A stretch of 64,000 nt of DNA from Longispora fulva (lineage in GTDB: Bacteria; Actinomycetota; Actinomycetes; Mycobacteriales; Micromonosporaceae): contig NZ_JADOUF010000001.1 in NCBI RefSeq assembly GCF_015751905.1, forward strand, positions 5,518,001 to 5,582,000, read 5' to 3'. The notes beneath the pieces were generated by a model, which saw only the letters and a list, made by a program, of their open reading frames with translations, made no database searches and was not told the origin of the DNA. The position numbers were made by a program, and so were the translations under genes. How positions within the stretch are numbered: the stretch's first letter is position 1; every line of letters begins with the position of its first letter. Positions 24,061-28,778 of the stretch are shown piece by piece.

Positions 24061-24238
24061 GCGGCTGCATGTTCCTGCAATCCGGACCGACAATTCGGGC
24101 ACGGCACTGACTGTGGCCCGCGCCGGTGGTGTGCTGTTCACCGGAAGGCAGCCCGTCGCCAAGTTGTAACGGGGGGCGACGGGCAGCCATCCGAAAGGGC
24201 ATTGCCTATGGGGCTCGCCACCGGCAAGATTCTGAGTC
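24061..24238 (+). promoter_or_regulatory. Upstream region of regulator/secreted cassette A, with 10-base dyad
   Basis: GCCCGTCGCC (24151-24160) and GGCGACGGGC (24175-24184) form a perfect inverted repeat with a 14-base spacer holding AGTTGTAACG, ending exactly 54 bases before the ATG at 24239. The same dyad, spacer length and distance recur before copy B (26075-26108). The conserved block extends upstream to TGCATG.TCCTGCAATC (from 24066) and downstream to the start codon. This is either an operator or a leader hairpin; autoregulation by the LuxR-type product is a plausible guess. Confidence 0.6.
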
Positions 24239-25297
24239 ATGGGGGATCTGAATCGGCTGGTGATGCCACGTGCGGCGGTGCCTCCGCTCACCCGGTGGGG
24301 CGTTTCGCCCACCGCCGACCTGGTGTTCCGCACCCTGACCGAATGTGGACCGAGCGTGATTGGAGTACTCGGCAAATCGCTGGGGTTACCGACCCGCCGG
24401 GTCCGGATAGCCCTCGACGAACTCAACTCTGTCGGGGCCGCCCGACCCGAGCGGATGGCGACGCCGACCGGCCCGGTCCGGGTGTGGCGCGGCGGGCAAC
24501 CCGAGGCGGTGGTGACATCGTTGCGGGAGCGCACGGTGCACGCGGTCAAGGCCCGACACCTGCTCCGCCAGCGGCTCAGCGGGCTGGACCTGTCCGATGT
24601 CATGAACCATCCTGATCTGACGGCCGCCGACGCCGTCCGGCCACTGTACGGACTAGCCCAGGTCCGGGCCCGGTTCGTCGAACTGGCCCCGACGGCGCGC
24701 ACGGAGGAAATGGTCCTCAACCCTGAGCCGGTGCTTCCCGAGAGTGCCGTCCGGGCCGGGGCGCCACTGGAGAGGGCATCCGCGCAGCGTGGCGTCTCGA
24801 CGCTGTCGCTGGGCGTGCCGGCCGGAGTGGGTGACGCCTCGCTGTCGCTGCACTACGAGATGATCGCGCTGGGCACGAAATACCGCGAACTACCACAGCT
24901 TCCCGCCCGGATCCTCATCATCGATCGCCGCACCGCGATCGTCCCCATCGACCCCGCCATCCTCGGCAAGGGGGCGCTCGAAGTGACGGCGCCCGTCGTG
25001 GTGGACCAACTGGTCGGGCTCTTCCTCCAGTACTGGAGCAGGGCCAAGGCTCCGGAGCGGCCCATGCCAGCCAACCTGCCCCTCACACCCCGCGAACAGG
25101 CGATCATCGCGCTGCTGGCCACCGGCCAGACCGACGCGAAGACGGCCGAGCAGCTCGGGGTCAGCGTGCGCACGATCGCGTACACGTTGAGCGACCTGAT
25201 GAGCCGATACGGCGTACAGAACCGATTCCAGCTCGGCATGGTGCTGGGCGCGCAGGGCGCCCGACCGACGACTATCCAGAAGGAACAGCAGAAATGA
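24239..25297 (+). CDS. LuxR-type regulator with N-terminal TrmB-like winged helix, cassette A
   Basis: 352-residue predicted transcription regulator. Residues about 20-75 form an N-terminal winged-helix-like part (TADLVFRTLTECGPSVIGVL, GLPTRRVRIALDELNSVG). The middle (about 100-260) has ARILIIDRRTAIVPIDP and GALEVTAPVVVDQLVGLFLQYW, a pattern I associate with PLD-like/TrmB sensor domains of orphan LuxR regulators. The C-terminal LuxR HTH is LTPREQAIIALLATGQTDAK...QLGVSVRTIAYTLSDLMSRY (about 283-327). No REC domain. Its ATGA overlaps the secreted-protein gene. The paralogue at 26163 is nearly identical in residues 10-75 and less so in the middle, so DNA targets may be shared and signals may differ. 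Confidence 0.82.
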   Translation: MGDLNRLVMPRAAVPPLTRWGVSPTADLVFRTLTECGPSVIGVLGKSLGLPTRRVRIALDELNSVGAARPERMATPTGPVRVWRGGQPEAVVTSLRERTVHAVKARHLLRQRLSGLDLSDVMNHPDLTAADAVRPLYGLAQVRARFVELAPTARTEEMVLNPEPVLPESAVRAGAPLERASAQRGVSTLSLGVPAGVGDASLSLHYEMIALGTKYRELPQLPARILIIDRRTAIVPIDPAILGKGALEVTAPVVVDQLVGLFLQYWSRAKAPERPMPANLPLTPREQAIIALLATGQTDAKTAEQLGVSVRTIAYTLSDLMSRYGVQNRFQLGMVLGAQGARPTTIQKEQQK

Positions 25298-25827
25298 CAG
25301 CACGACTGAGGACACTCTTGGCGGTCGCCGCCGGCTCCTTGCTCGCCGTGAGCATGACGACTCCGGCACACGCGGTGGTCAACCAGCCCGTCGCCGGCTA
25401 CACGGCGTTTCTGGATTGCCCGTCCGGAACCGCCACCACCGGCTCGATGCTCCTCCTCACCCAGGGCACGATCAAGCCCTGCGCCACTCCCAGGTCGTAT
25501 GTCTTCGCTCTCGCCGGCTACGGCAGCCGCACCGACTGGGGTGGCCTGACCGCCTATGGGACGCCGTACCACTTCATCACGGACACCGACCGGTACGGAA
25601 CCGAGTTCACCATCAAGCCGGGCACCACTGTCGTGTGCCTCCTGGCCTCGCAGGACAAGAAGCTCGACTGCATCGAGGTCGTCTGGAACGCCGCCGGCCA
25701 GGCGACCGAGGGCGCACACGTCCCCGGCACCGACCCGCGCGTACAGATGCCGGCGGCGATCGACGGCTCGACCAACCCGACGGACCCGGGCTGCGTCTAC
25801 TGCTGGACTGAGCCGAGCAACGACTAG
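25294..25827 (+). CDS. Secreted six-cysteine protein with CxxCW end, cassette A
   Basis: 177 residues with a classical signal peptide (LRTLLAVAAGSLLAVS, cleavage after PAHA at about 27). The mature part has exactly six cysteines at 42, 63, 115, 126, 167 and 170, ending in GCVYCW near the C-terminus. The paralogue at 27221 has six at equivalent places, with spacing from C2 onward of 52/51, 11/11, 41/42 and 3/3. This indicates a disulfide-stabilised extracellular fold with three bridges possible. I know no named family. The ATG overlaps the regulator stop by four bases, so the two are co-translated. Possible roles: sensor, extracellular signal, toxin or inhibitor; nothing decides. Confidence 0.8.
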   Translation: MTARLRTLLAVAAGSLLAVSMTTPAHAVVNQPVAGYTAFLDCPSGTATTGSMLLLTQGTIKPCATPRSYVFALAGYGSRTDWGGLTAYGTPYHFITDTDRYGTEFTIKPGTTVVCLLASQDKKLDCIEVVWNAAGQATEGAHVPGTDPRVQMPAAIDGSTNPTDPGCVYCWTEPSND

Positions 25828-25901
25828 TAGGCCCGCCGCATTCAGGTTTCCGCGACGGCGGTGTGTCGAACACATAGCTGACCACGGTCGGCCTGGCCTT
25901 C

Positions 25902-25934
25902 AGCGCGTCCATGACCAGCTCGTCTGGCACGGAC
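25902..25934 (-). pseudogene. Remnant of the ispH 3' coding end
   Basis: These 33 bases match 27934-27966 inside ispH at 31 positions. On the minus strand they read [11 protein letters not shown], against [11 protein letters not shown] in the IspH C-terminus. Similarity fades on both sides. It lies downstream of cassette A in the same orientation and order that the real ispH end has after cassette B. The simplest explanation is that the tandem duplication carried a piece of ispH with it, and that the piece then decayed. Confidence 0.7.
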
Positions 25935-25989
25935 CGCCGGGGATCGGGCCGGCCGTGTTCGCGTTTGCCCACCGGCGCGGACCGGCCAC

Positions 25990-26162
25990 TGCATGATCCT
26001 GCAATCTGCGCGGACAAACCGGACCACCCCCTGACCTGGACGCCCCGAGCTGATGTGCTGTTCCCCGGAAGGCAGCCCGTCGCCGAGTTGTTACGGGGGG
26101 CGACGGGCAGCCGACCGAAAGGGCGTTGTCCCCGGGGCTGTTCACCGGCAGGATCCTGAACC
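25990..26162 (+). promoter_or_regulatory. Upstream region of regulator/secreted cassette B, with the same 10-base dyad
   Basis: GCCCGTCGCC (26075-26084) and GGCGACGGGC (26099-26108) are identical to copy A, with the same 14-base spacer (one of the changes is GTTGTTACG) and the same 54 bases to the ATG at 26163. Upstream, TGCATGATCCTGCAATC (from 25991) matches copy A from 24066. Non-coding conservation as high as that of the coding start argues for a functional site. Confidence 0.6.
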
Positions 26163-27224
26163 ATGGGGGATCGGAATGAGCTGGTGGTGCCACGGGTCAC
26201 AGTGCCTCCGTTGACGAGGTGGGGCATTTCTCCCACCGCAGATCTGGTGTTTCGCACCCTGACCGAATGTGGACCGAGCGTGATCGGAGTACTCAGCAGA
26301 TCGCTGGGCCTGCCGGCCAACAGGGTCCGGATCGCGCTCGACGAACTCAACTCCGTCGGGGCGGCCCGGCCCGAACGGACGGCATCGCCCACGGGACCTG
26401 TCCAGATCTGGCGGGGCCGGCGACCGGACGCCGTGGTGACCTCGCTGCGGGACCGGGAACTGCAGGCCGCCCAGGCCCGGCACCTTCTCCGCCGGCAGCT
26501 CACCGGCCTCGACCTGGCCGACATCATGAACCATCCCGACATGTCCGCGCCCCAGGCCGTGGTGACACTCAACGGCTGGCGTCAGGTGCAGGCCCGGCTC
26601 GGCGAGCTCACCCCGCGGACGCGGCAGGAGGCGCTGGCCATCATGCCCGAGGCGGTTCTCGACGCGCAGACCGTCCGGGCGGGAGCCGACAACGACCGCG
26701 ACCTGGCCCGGCGCGGAATCCTGGCGCGGAGAATCGGCGTGCCGTCCGGGGTCGGCGACGCGTCGCGGGCCCTGCACGCCGAAATGGCCGCCCACAGCTT
26801 CAACCACTACCGACAGGTCGCGCACCTGCCCGCCCGGATCATCATCATGGACCGGCGAACAGCGATCCTGCCGATCGATCCGGCCCGGGTCAGCCGTGGC
26901 GCGTTGGAAGTGACCGCGCCCGCCGCCGTGGCACGACTGGTCGAACTGTTCCATACCTATTGGGACAAAGCCCTCCCGCCGGAGCAACCCATGTCCCCTG
27001 ACATCGTCCTCACCCCCCGCGAGGCGGCGATCATCGCGCTGCTCACCGAAGGCCACACCGACGCCAGCGTCTCGGCGGAGCTCGGGATCAGCGTCCGGAC
27101 CATCGCGTACTCGATCAGCGACCTGATGAGTCGGTGCGGGGTCCAGAACCGGTTCCAACTGGGTCTGGTCCTCGGCTCGCAGACCATCACGCCCCGCACC
27201 ACGGAAAAGGAACCAGAACAATGA
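26163..27224 (+). CDS. LuxR-type regulator with N-terminal TrmB-like winged helix, cassette B
   Basis: 353-residue paralogue of the regulator at 24239-25297 with the same architecture: N-terminal winged-helix-like part (PTADLVFRTLTECGPSVIGV is identical in both), middle domain with ARIIIMDRRTAILPIDP and GALEVTAPAAVARLVELF, and C-terminal LuxR HTH (LTPREAAIIALLTEGHTDAS...ELGISVRTIAYSISDLMSRC). The segments least like copy A are about 95-215, the presumed signal-sensing part. The stop overlaps the ATG of the secreted-protein gene as in cassette A. It follows the ispH scrap, so it is one arm of a tandem duplication with the real ispH downstream. Confidence 0.82.
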   Translation: MGDRNELVVPRVTVPPLTRWGISPTADLVFRTLTECGPSVIGVLSRSLGLPANRVRIALDELNSVGAARPERTASPTGPVQIWRGRRPDAVVTSLRDRELQAAQARHLLRRQLTGLDLADIMNHPDMSAPQAVVTLNGWRQVQARLGELTPRTRQEALAIMPEAVLDAQTVRAGADNDRDLARRGILARRIGVPSGVGDASRALHAEMAAHSFNHYRQVAHLPARIIIMDRRTAILPIDPARVSRGALEVTAPAAVARLVELFHTYWDKALPPEQPMSPDIVLTPREAAIIALLTEGHTDASVSAELGISVRTIAYSISDLMSRCGVQNRFQLGLVLGSQTITPRTTEKEPEQ

Positions 27225-27778
27225 CCTGGAAGTCCCGGCTGGTCGGCACTATCGCCGCCCTCTCCCTCGCGATGCTCGGCATGGCGGGCCAGGCCACGGC
27301 GAGCGGGTCCGTCCCTCAACCGCAGTGGATGAAGTGCCCCAGGCCAGTGGTCACCGGCGACGTGTACTCGATCACGGTGGGCCAGCAGGTCTCCGCCGGC
27401 TACTGGGACCTGTCCGTGGCCGGCACCGTGACGCCGTGCCACACGCCGGGCGAACTCGAATCCTTCACCGTCGTCACCTTCAGCAACGGACAGGACACCT
27501 CGGGCTGGGCCGACCATTACGCGGATCTGACGAACGGCAACCAGTTCGCGGGGGTGCACGTCGAGGCTCCCACGACGGCCGACGCGGTCTGCCTGGCCAC
27601 GGCGCCGAGCACCAGGCTCGCGTGCTTCGCCGTCACCTGGCCCAACGGCACCGCGGCCGCACCCGTGATCGGCGACCGGATTCCGTTGGCCGTCACGGAG
27701 CACTGGGGCAACATGACCCTGCGGTGGCAGCCGACCAGCGGCCCGACCTGCGGCTTCTGCTGGCCGGTCAGCGGCTGA
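27221..27778 (+). CDS. Secreted six-cysteine protein with CxxCW end, cassette B
   Basis: 185 residues. The signal peptide (SRLVGTIAALSLAMLGMAG) is likely cleaved after ATA at about 27. Six cysteines at 39, 73, 124, 135, 177 and 180 match those of the cassette A product, with the shared short sequences GT(I/V)(K/T)PC, (V/A)VCLA and CxxCW. Overall identity to copy A is low outside these points, so the cysteine frame is the conserved feature and the surface has changed. This contrasts with the better-conserved regulators and suggests fast or relaxed evolution of the secreted partner. The start ATG at 27221 is chosen because of the ATGA overlap. Confidence 0.8.
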   Translation: MTWKSRLVGTIAALSLAMLGMAGQATASGSVPQPQWMKCPRPVVTGDVYSITVGQQVSAGYWDLSVAGTVTPCHTPGELESFTVVTFSNGQDTSGWADHYADLTNGNQFAGVHVEAPTTADAVCLATAPSTRLACFAVTWPNGTAAAPVIGDRIPLAVTEHWGNMTLRWQPTSGPTCGFCWPVSG

Positions 27779-27815: not shown

Positions 27816-28778
27816 TCAGCGGCCCGCCGCGCGCATGTCGCGCTTGAGCTCCTGCGGCAGCGAGAACGTCAGATGCTCCTCGGCCGTCTCGAACTCGGTG
27901 ACGTCCGCGTACCCCCGCTCGGCCAGGAACGCCAGCACGTCCATGACCAGCTCGTCGGGCACGGACGCGCCGGACGTCAGGCCGACCGTGGTCGCGCCCT
28001 CCAGCCACTCCTCGCGGATCTCGTGCGCGTAGTCGACGAGGTAGCCGGCGCGGGCGCCCGCGTCCACGGCCACCTCGACGAGCCGGACGGAGTTCGACGA
28101 GTTGGTCGAGCCGACGACGAGGACGACGTCGCACTCGGGGGCCAGTTCCTTGACGGCGAGCTGGCGGTTCTGGGTGGCGTAGCAGATGTCGTCCGACGGC
28201 GGGGAGACCAGCAGCGGCAGCTTGGTGCGCAGCTTCGCCACGGTCGCCATGGTCTCGTCCACCGACAGCGTGGTCTGGGACAGCCAGACGACCCTGGCCG
28301 GATCGCGGACCTCGACGGCGTCGACGCCGGCCGGGCCGTCGACGAGCTGGATGCTGGCGGGGGCCTCACCCATGGTGCCGATGACCTCTTCGTGGCCTTC
28401 GTGGCCGATGAGCACGATGTCGTACCCCTCGGACGCGAAGCGTTTGGCCTCGTTGTGCACCTTGGTCACGAGCGGGCAGGTGGCGTCGATGGCGCGGAGG
28501 TTGCGCTGCCGGGCCTCCTCGTAGACCACGGGGGCGACGCCGTGCGCGGAGAAGATGACGGTCGCGCCCTCGGGGACCTCGTCGTTCTCCTCCACGAAGA
28601 TCGCGCCCTGGTCCTGCAGCGTCTGCACGACGTGCCGGTTGTGCACGATCTCCTTGCGCACGTAGATCGGCGCCCCGTACAGCGCGAGAGCCTCCTTGAC
28701 CGTCTCCACGGCGCGGTCGACCCCGGCGCAGTAACCACGGGGCTTGGCGAGCAGGACACGCTTCACAGGATCGGACAC
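27816..28778 (-). CDS. ispH: 4-hydroxy-3-methylbut-2-enyl diphosphate reductase
   Basis: Last enzyme of the MEP isoprenoid pathway (LytB), 320 residues from the GTG at 28778; an in-frame ATG at 28802 is an alternative. It reduces HMBPP to IPP and DMAPP with a [4Fe-4S] cluster held by three cysteines. All are present in their motifs: [13 protein letters not shown] (about 12-24), [17 protein letters not shown] (about 99-115) and [11 protein letters not shown] (about 193-203). The substrate motifs AHGVAP and STNSSNS are also intact. It is divergent from xseA across an 81-base gap. The 3' end is the source of the scrap at 25902-25934. Confidence 0.97.

Follow-up and report, generated by a model that had tools for sequence, protein, structure and literature searches.

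The DNA considered here is a stretch of 64,000 nucleotides from the actinobacterium Longispora fulva (contig NZ_JADOUF010000001.1, positions 5,518,001 to 5,582,000), hereafter the window, in which positions 24061..27778 hold two tandem units. Each is composed of a 20-bp palindrome, a leader, the gene of a 352- or 353-residue regulator, and the gene of a putatively secreted protein with six cysteines, referred to below as the partner. A preliminary description of this DNA had set out these coordinates, the gene order and the gene overlap, all of which the sequence confirms; it had noted neither the palindromes nor the ispH remnant that lies between the units. Unit 1 opens with an operator-like 20-bp palindrome, GGCTGCATGTTCCTGCAATC (24063..24082, no strand), whose centre lies 166 bp upstream of the ATG of regulator 1 (24239..25297, + strand, 352 residues); partner 1 (25294..25827, + strand, 177 residues) follows. 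The corresponding palindrome of unit 2, CACTGCATGATCCTGCAATC (25987..26006, 20 bp, no strand), is likewise operator-like and centred 166 bp upstream of the ATG of regulator 2 (26163..27224, + strand, 353 residues), and partner 2 (27221..27778, + strand, 185 residues) completes the cassette. In both units the regulator stop and the partner ATG share the tetranucleotide ATGA, a 4-base overlap.

Both partners belong to a six-cysteine alignment, with cysteines at residues 42, 63, 115, 126, 167, and 170 of partner 1 and 39, 73, 124, 135, 177, and 180 of partner 2, positions that agree with the spacings first described. A Sec-type signal is predicted for partners from hydropathy and AxA-like ends alone. 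Near the C-termini lie the pentapeptides CVYCW (25792..25806, + strand), followed by TEPSND, in partner 1 and CGFCW (27749..27763, + strand), followed by PVSG, in partner 2. A known protein family with an assigned role would have told against the preliminary description; neither window partner matches a Pfam or NCBIfam family, Pfam gave one match among 30 long partners of the wider family (DUF7374, E 0.076), and a sequence search of solved structures (PDB) with a partner profile gave two weak matches (E 0.077 and 0.43) and no relative.

The regulators are modelled as three-domain proteins in which a TrmB-like winged helix is followed by a sensor of phospholipase-D (PLD)/TrmB fold and a GerE/LuxR helix-turn-helix (HTH). 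In a structure model of regulator 2 (predicted local distance difference test score, pLDDT, 87.6), the winged helix spans residues 10-117, the PLD-like fold 125-275, and the LuxR HTH 279-345; the fold of regulator 1 is taken from this paralogue's model. The PLD domain, which we call degenerate, corresponds to the PLD-like effector domain that characterizes the TrmB family. All 62 family members match the GerE HTH (PF00196), for which the two window regulators score 36 and 38 bits against a cut-off of 23.5, and 54 of the 62 match the TrmB winged helix (PF01978) at E<=0.1 (best 2.5e-9), with regulator 2 at 12.4 bits, under the 25.6 cut-off, and regulator 1 without a listed match. No tetratricopeptide repeat (TPR) appears among the 25 most frequent of the 62 Pfam families listed for the 62 members, nor in the model of regulator 2, which the three domains fill. 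Similarly, the listed matches of the window proteins include no LuxR-type autoinducer-binding domain, and their region 125-275 is PLD-like.

The two copies have diverged to very different extents along their length. Their upstream blocks remain identical at 139 of 176 aligned bases (79%), bearing out the conserved block noted earlier, and over 18 positions the palindromes differ at a single inner base. Identity is 64% between the regulators; between the partners it is about 26-28% in amino acids and 47% in nucleotides. As had also been noted, the regulators differ most in mid-protein: identity is 82% over residues 1-95, 52% over 96-215, 62% over 216-275, and 68% over 276-340, with nonsynonymous divergence (dN) of 0.11, 0.39, 0.29, and 0.24, respectively. 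Over the whole regulator pair dN is 0.27 and synonymous divergence (dS) 0.71; for the partner pair, the alignment of which is uncertain at such distance, they are 0.90 and 0.92. With dN of 0.90 in the partner against dS of 0.71 in the regulator, amino acid change in the partner has therefore outpaced the silent sites of its neighbor; replacement of partner sequence by recombination may be an alternative source of this divergence. Between the units, a minus-strand stretch at 25882..25963 matches 68 of 84 aligned bases (81%) of the 3′ end, at 27913-27996, of the minus-strand gene after unit 2, which we take from its protein sequence to be ispH. The order unit, ispH end, unit, ispH marks a tandem segmental duplication, and this remnant, the scar of the event, fixes the unit of duplication.

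Recurrence of the cassette and the constant tail

With a profile of seven regulators as the query, a search of 397 genomes of the order returned 14 members scoring at least 345 bits, in 8 genomes, and one more at 207 bits. The L. fulva genome itself holds four members (at least 468 bits), separated by a clear gap from the next regulator there, which scores 194 bits. When 394 genomes were sampled across the class, none of the 393 others reached the score level of the subfamily, with one outlier at 212 bits, and a first contig scan with regulator 2 as sole query gave no match. Named genomes, where loci were picked via two short regulator motifs, contributed 75 loci, 59 of them with full-length members (55 Micromonosporaceae, 2 Pseudonocardiaceae, 1 Streptomycetaceae, and 1 unassigned). 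This sample and the loci found before make up a non-redundant set of 69 regulators, a few of which share a genome; L032, where the contig ends, is excluded from partner counts, which leaves 68, and L080 and L093 are trimmed to 345 residues in the tree. Two further cassettes lie elsewhere in the L. fulva genome (L044, G000:C1:2266791-2268358; L043, 1190778-1191815), with one partner of 186 residues ending in CGNCWGGPDAPPVGGGKG and one of 46 residues that begins MTSTKRRI and ends in WWKWCAGCIPSTSN.

An open reading frame was scored as a partner if it combined a hydrophobic N-terminus with CxxC in its last 35 residues and started no more than 260 bases from the regulator stop. Such a frame was present in 45 of the 59 loci, compared with 2 of the 2289 other frames of those loci and, as a control, with 1 of 25 loci whose regulators are related but fall outside the subfamily; the single control frame, ending CPQCLHSLASI, is probably a chance occurrence. 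Inspection of the misses by hand recovered partners upstream of the regulator in five loci (L061, L062, L063, L069, and L079). It also showed that the partner of L093 is intact and that L098, counted here as partner-bearing, has a frameshifted partner gene. A partner consequently adjoins 60 of the 68 non-redundant regulators, mostly downstream, and none stands beside the other eight (L036, L056, L080, L082, L096, L099, L104, and L122). Because the cassette recurs in relatives, it is not a product of chance, and the coupling of a regulator to its own secreted protein, proposed from the two window units, extends to the family. L098, in Phytohabitans flavus, is a decaying cassette in which the signal-peptide frame and a frame ending FCGTCV are no longer joined, and it sits beside other intact cassettes of that species. 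Elsewhere, the cassettes of a clade with CVxCT/CLTCA tails (L060, L067, L076, L078, L081, and L085) have common neighbors, including a gene with a start that presumably resembles GH9 cellulases.

Three builds can be told apart among the 60 partners: 36 are medium (155-242 residues), of which 31 have exactly six cysteines, 20 are short (46-96 residues), and 4 are long (361-370 residues). Since the short ones consist of a signal peptide, a spacer, and the tail, the six-cysteine domain is dispensable, and it does not define the partner, which corrects the preliminary description. What is kept instead is a C-terminal C-[GA]-[TSN]-C-[VWLF], with G33, A11, and V6 at position 2, T30, S14, and N7 at position 3, and V17, W14, L14, F5, A3, T2, G2, and single I, M, and Y at position 5 (n=60). 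The CxxCW end seen in the window is therefore retained in its CxxC, and its tryptophan generalizes to V, W, L, F, and a few others. This tail is the end of the protein in 40 of the 60 partners, and the others carry up to 20 residues more. Builds switch while the tail stays the same, as with CGNCW in L094 (51 residues) and L044 (186 residues, L. fulva), CGTCF in L086 (68 residues) and L090 (242 residues), and CGTCV in L073 (155 residues) and L065/L066 (67/63 residues). Tandem partners may likewise share a tail at low overall identity (37% at the L041 locus, both CANCV; 45% at L100, both CGHCW). In the long partners (L058, L064, L075, and L083), the six-cysteine domain is doubled and each copy is followed by a cysteine-pair tail, CxxxCL inside and CASCL at the end.

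A six-cysteine profile, run against 394 genomes of the order, matched at 12 places, of which 11 adjoin such a regulator and one is an orphan (L134, G055:C220:3066-3584), which ends DPRCGACF and has no regulator within 1.5 kb on each side. Homologues lying mostly away from regulators, the outcome that would have undercut the proposed coupling, were thus not encountered. Ten of the 12 matches were already in the query alignment or near-copies, and the two new ones comprise one adjacent and the one orphan; hence the search shows mainly that stray copies are few in that sample.

Operator-like palindromes and leaders

A 20-bp palindrome of about GRTTGCGnGATnnCGCAAYC lies upstream of most family members. 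Scored with a matrix trained without the locus tested and its relatives of at least 50% identity, over 800-base upstream regions with 100 dinucleotide shuffles each, it was reached by at most 1 of 100 shuffles in 48 of the 60 regions from loci with a partner and in 5 of the 8 from loci that have none. With 500-base regions and a genomic background, a site in the top 1% of 1080 windows was found in 42 of 55 versus 4 of 13 under the old grouping. An early contrast (33/52 versus 0/13), according to which partner-less regulators lack the operator, was given up when inclusion of upstream partners and longer regions turned it into 48/60 versus 5/8. Zero-mismatch copies of CTGCATGWTCCTGCAATC occur in the whole genome only at the two window units; at three mismatches the window palindrome finds four further places, versus two for the reversed pattern.

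Several loci carry operator-like palindromes also before other secreted-looking frames, which may be targets (L065 at 6624, L072 at 5566, L077 at 5528, and L122 at 5104); in L122, from Kitasatospora, the extra palindrome directly follows the regulator that has no partner. Another recurrent neighbor is a small HTH-only LuxR-type gene (about 80-90 residues, GerE-like), found beside the regulator in L052, L054, L058, L060, L064, L067, L075, L076, L078, L081, L083, L085, L059, L079, L097, and L103. It usually stands between palindrome and regulator, an order shown by at least 12 named loci that come largely from the CVxCT and long-partner clades, and lies downstream of the regulator in L097 and L103.

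The leaders of the two window units contain strong hairpins on the + strand at 24142..24193 (arms 24142-24160 and 24175-24193) and 26066..26117 (arms 26066-26084 and 26099-26117), with identical 19-base left arms and no T-run after them. The hairpin-bearing 85-base region is about 88% identical between the units and the first part of the leader 70%. Fold z scores are -4.1 for unit 1 (24135-24210), -2.5 for unit 2 (26059-26134), and -0.4 for the longer 26054-26166; with values that vary this much by unit and length, the hairpin is at most a candidate RNA element. An Rfam search of the leader returned only a chance microRNA match (E 0.32).

Covariation and its interpretation

The relation between partner and regulator was assessed by multiple matrix regression over the 60 regulator-partner pairs, with tail difference defined by the three non-cysteine positions. 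Tail difference tracks two stretches of the sensor, 125-195 (beta 0.565, p 0.0002) and 196-275 (beta 0.193, p 0.016), and tracks neither the winged helix (-0.096), the linker (-0.089), nor the LuxR HTH (-0.059) in these 60 pairs; R2 of the whole regression is 0.42. The 125-195 effect persists when the short partners (n 20, p 0.003) and the medium partners (n 36, p 0.001) are analysed separately. Palindrome difference, available for 53 sites, tracks only the LuxR HTH (beta 0.353, p 0.0002; linker 0.102, p 0.07; R2 0.11). The same picture emerges from independent nearest pairs, in which the ratio of sensor to winged-helix distance is 0.55 for the 11 pairs with the same tail and 1.19 for the 10 with different tails (21 pairs, p 0.0034); pairs drawn from a tree of the DNA-binding domains give 0.57 versus 1.21 (25 pairs, p 0.0025). 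The window regulators are the extreme case, with a sensor distance of 0.58 versus a winged-helix distance of 0.15. The suggestion that the copies had diverged in signal or target can be narrowed to the first: divergence in signal fits, and a change of target is at odds with the nearly identical palindromes of the two copies.

We regard it as rather probable that each unit is a self-controlled one-component peptide-signal module in which the sensor reads the tail and the HTH reads the palindrome. The regulator would use its C-terminal LuxR HTH to bind the 20-bp palindrome upstream of the operon that encodes it, and this operon would yield the regulator together with a partner exported by a Sec-type route. 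The C-x-x-C-hydrophobic pentapeptide would be the part that is read, probably as a small disulfide ring once outside, and the six-cysteine domain ahead of it, where present, may be protective. The degenerate PLD/TrmB-fold domain would read the tail, most likely after a C-terminal fragment is released and re-enters the cell, as in RRNPP systems. Reading of the tail by the sensor is the best-supported step after the anatomy, and the data support a closed loop from palindrome to regulator to secreted tail and back to the regulator. Computation shows the cassette and its recurrence, the conserved tail, the domain anatomy, and the covariation of tail with sensor and of operator with HTH. We infer the remaining steps, namely secretion (from hydropathy), disulfide formation, release, re-entry as an imported peptide, direct binding, and the direction of regulation. 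In the window, one module was duplicated in tandem, with operator and DNA-binding parts retained and sensor and partner diverged, as would be expected of two channels that split their signals. A broader proposal, for which we see the case as evenly poised, is that such modules form a separate signalling class centred on Micromonosporaceae, in which degenerate PLD-fold receptors would serve disulfide-ring C-x-x-C-hydrophobic pentapeptides cut from the C-terminus of secreted precursors, with several private channels per genome (four here), the identity of each being fixed by three residues of the tail together with a 20-bp palindrome that the LuxR HTH recognizes.

Several observations weigh against a peptide-signal module. 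Column-level mutual information fails to single out the sensor or to localize a recognition surface, and for tail residue 5 the top 30 columns comprise 15 from the winged helix and 13 from the sensor. Control segments of the partner show associations of their own: the three residues before the tail are weakly linked to sensor 196-275 (beta 0.177, p 0.002; R2 0.05), a five-residue control gives R2 0.05 and pair-test p values of 0.096 and 0.047, and variation in the signal peptide tracks the linker (0.27, p 0.0002; R2 0.14). The controls are quieter than the tail, yet not silent, and the LuxR HTH, too, attains p 0.02 in the pair test. Tandem partners can have unequal tails (CASCV/CAGCV in L055; CASCG/CAGCV in L059), and the tails of the two window partners are not at the extreme C-terminus. 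A clear operator is missing from 12 of the 60 partner-bearing loci. Of the 8 partner-less regulators, 5 retain one, so that the link between operator and partner is not a strict one. The L. fulva genome gave no sign of a wider regulon; the general palindrome with one mismatch occurs there at 2 places versus 2 for the control. Finally, no transporter, protease, or modifying enzyme was recognized as a common neighbor in a rough clustering of 1925 flanking frames, in which the largest cluster covers 9 loci and the next ones reflect shared order within one clade.

The main rival, which we consider unlikely, dispenses with a pheromone altogether: the sensor would bind the tail of the unexported precursor in the cytoplasm and thereby gauge secretion capacity or back-pressure, an export-coupled feedback for which secreted anti-factors of the FlgM kind offer an analogy. 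It accounts for the tail-sensor covariation and the overlapping genes with neither release nor re-entry, and it suits partners of 155-370 residues, which would be unusual as pheromone precursors, as well as tails with up to 20 residues after them. However, variation in the signal peptide does not track sensor 125-195 (beta -0.126), a cytoplasmic read-out gives no reason for the strict cysteine pair, and precursors of 46-68 residues resemble propeptides more than secretion cargo. Unlikelier again is that the partner acts as an extracellular effector, such as an inhibitor, binding protein, or antimicrobial, and that the regulator senses something else, for example a sugar as TrmB does. The preliminary description had allowed for a sensing, toxin/inhibitor, or signalling pair, of which sensing or signalling is supported and a toxin or inhibitor, though conceivable, has no finding in its favor. 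An effector would leave unexplained why the three variable tail residues track the sensor, why the tail is constant across partners with and without a globular domain, and why some partners have only 46-60 residues.

We give little credence to the CxxC tail as a redox or metal switch, or as a tag for a modifying enzyme, with an indirect link to the regulator; the two invariant cysteines with their two-residue gap in the tails counted would suit such a role, but the variation that tracks the sensor sits in the non-cysteine residues, and the clustering recognized no modifying enzyme beside the cassettes. Least credible of all is shared ancestry only, by which co-inherited neighbor genes would look correlated with no recognition between them: relatives do cluster by genus, and the column-level result is of the kind expected, but none of 500 simulations of tails on the regulator tree and none of 500 on a sensor-only tree reached the observed sensor coefficient, correlation, or R2, other domains of the same protein with the same ancestry lack the association, and the independent pairs agree. 

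Should the tail prove to be the signal, these filamentous, antibiotic-rich bacteria would own a peptide code of three variable letters, two between the cysteines and one at the end. Such a code would be readable from genomes, since receptor domain, operator, and cognate tail are all named; it could be tested directly with short synthetic peptides and would offer handles for silent gene clusters, and the PLD fold would gain a use in binding peptide ligands.

Comparison with known signalling systems

The best-documented cases of peptide quorum sensing through a cytoplasmic receptor come from Bacillota and involve TPR receptors. The RRNPP systems (Rap-Phr, PlcR-PapR, Rgg-SHP, AimR, and relatives) resemble the cassettes in their one-component cytoplasmic regulator, the adjacent gene for a secreted precursor, and a candidate signal at the C-terminus. 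Their published signature comprises adjacent genes (-60 to 400 bp), Sec export, a TPR receptor of 250-500 residues, and a propeptide of 10-100 residues (PMC10075063); further traits described are a signal located at the very end of the precursor, coordinated change of receptor and signal, and duplication of propeptides (PMC10075063, PMC11343458). The window regulators, at 352 and 353 residues with a 4-base overlap, fall within the adjacency and size ranges, as do the 60 of 68 relatives with regard to adjacency. In contrast, the window precursors of 177 and 185 residues exceed 10-100, a range into which 20 of the 60 family partners fall (46-96 residues, with L098 broken). The TPR is replaced by a PLD/TrmB-fold sensor, with a LuxR HTH as DNA reader, and the precursors reach 370 residues, with an optional six-cysteine domain, an invariant CxxC, and hosts in Actinomycetota.

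Other known regulators share single elements with the cassette. TrmB and TrmBL2 have the same succession of winged helix and PLD-like effector domain, to which the cassette regulator adds a C-terminal GerE HTH and a secreted neighbor. LuxR-type regulators, with their GerE HTH, use 20-bp lux-box palindromes; the cassette differs in having no LuxI-type partner, no autoinducer-binding domain that could be seen, and a sensor of another fold. Agr systems employ AgrD thiolactone peptides, which the candidate signal resembles as a short C-terminal peptide with cysteine and a hydrophobic end, whereas no AgrB protease, histidine kinase, or response regulator was recognized in the frames around the window cassette or, by the rough clustering, among the common neighbors. 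For Actinobacteria, a 2016 review tabulates mainly gamma-butyrolactone, autoinducer-2 (AI-2), and nucleotide signals. A search of the open-access literature, with most subscription journals and bioRxiv outside its scope, returned no report of this pairing, of a PLD-fold receptor, of a CxxC-hydrophobic tail, or of a removable six-cysteine domain; the name TrmB does not occur in PMC3466318. A regulator with a cognate secreted peptide is a known kind of system, and the PLD-fold receptor, the CxxC-hydrophobic tail, and the removable six-cysteine domain would be its new elements.

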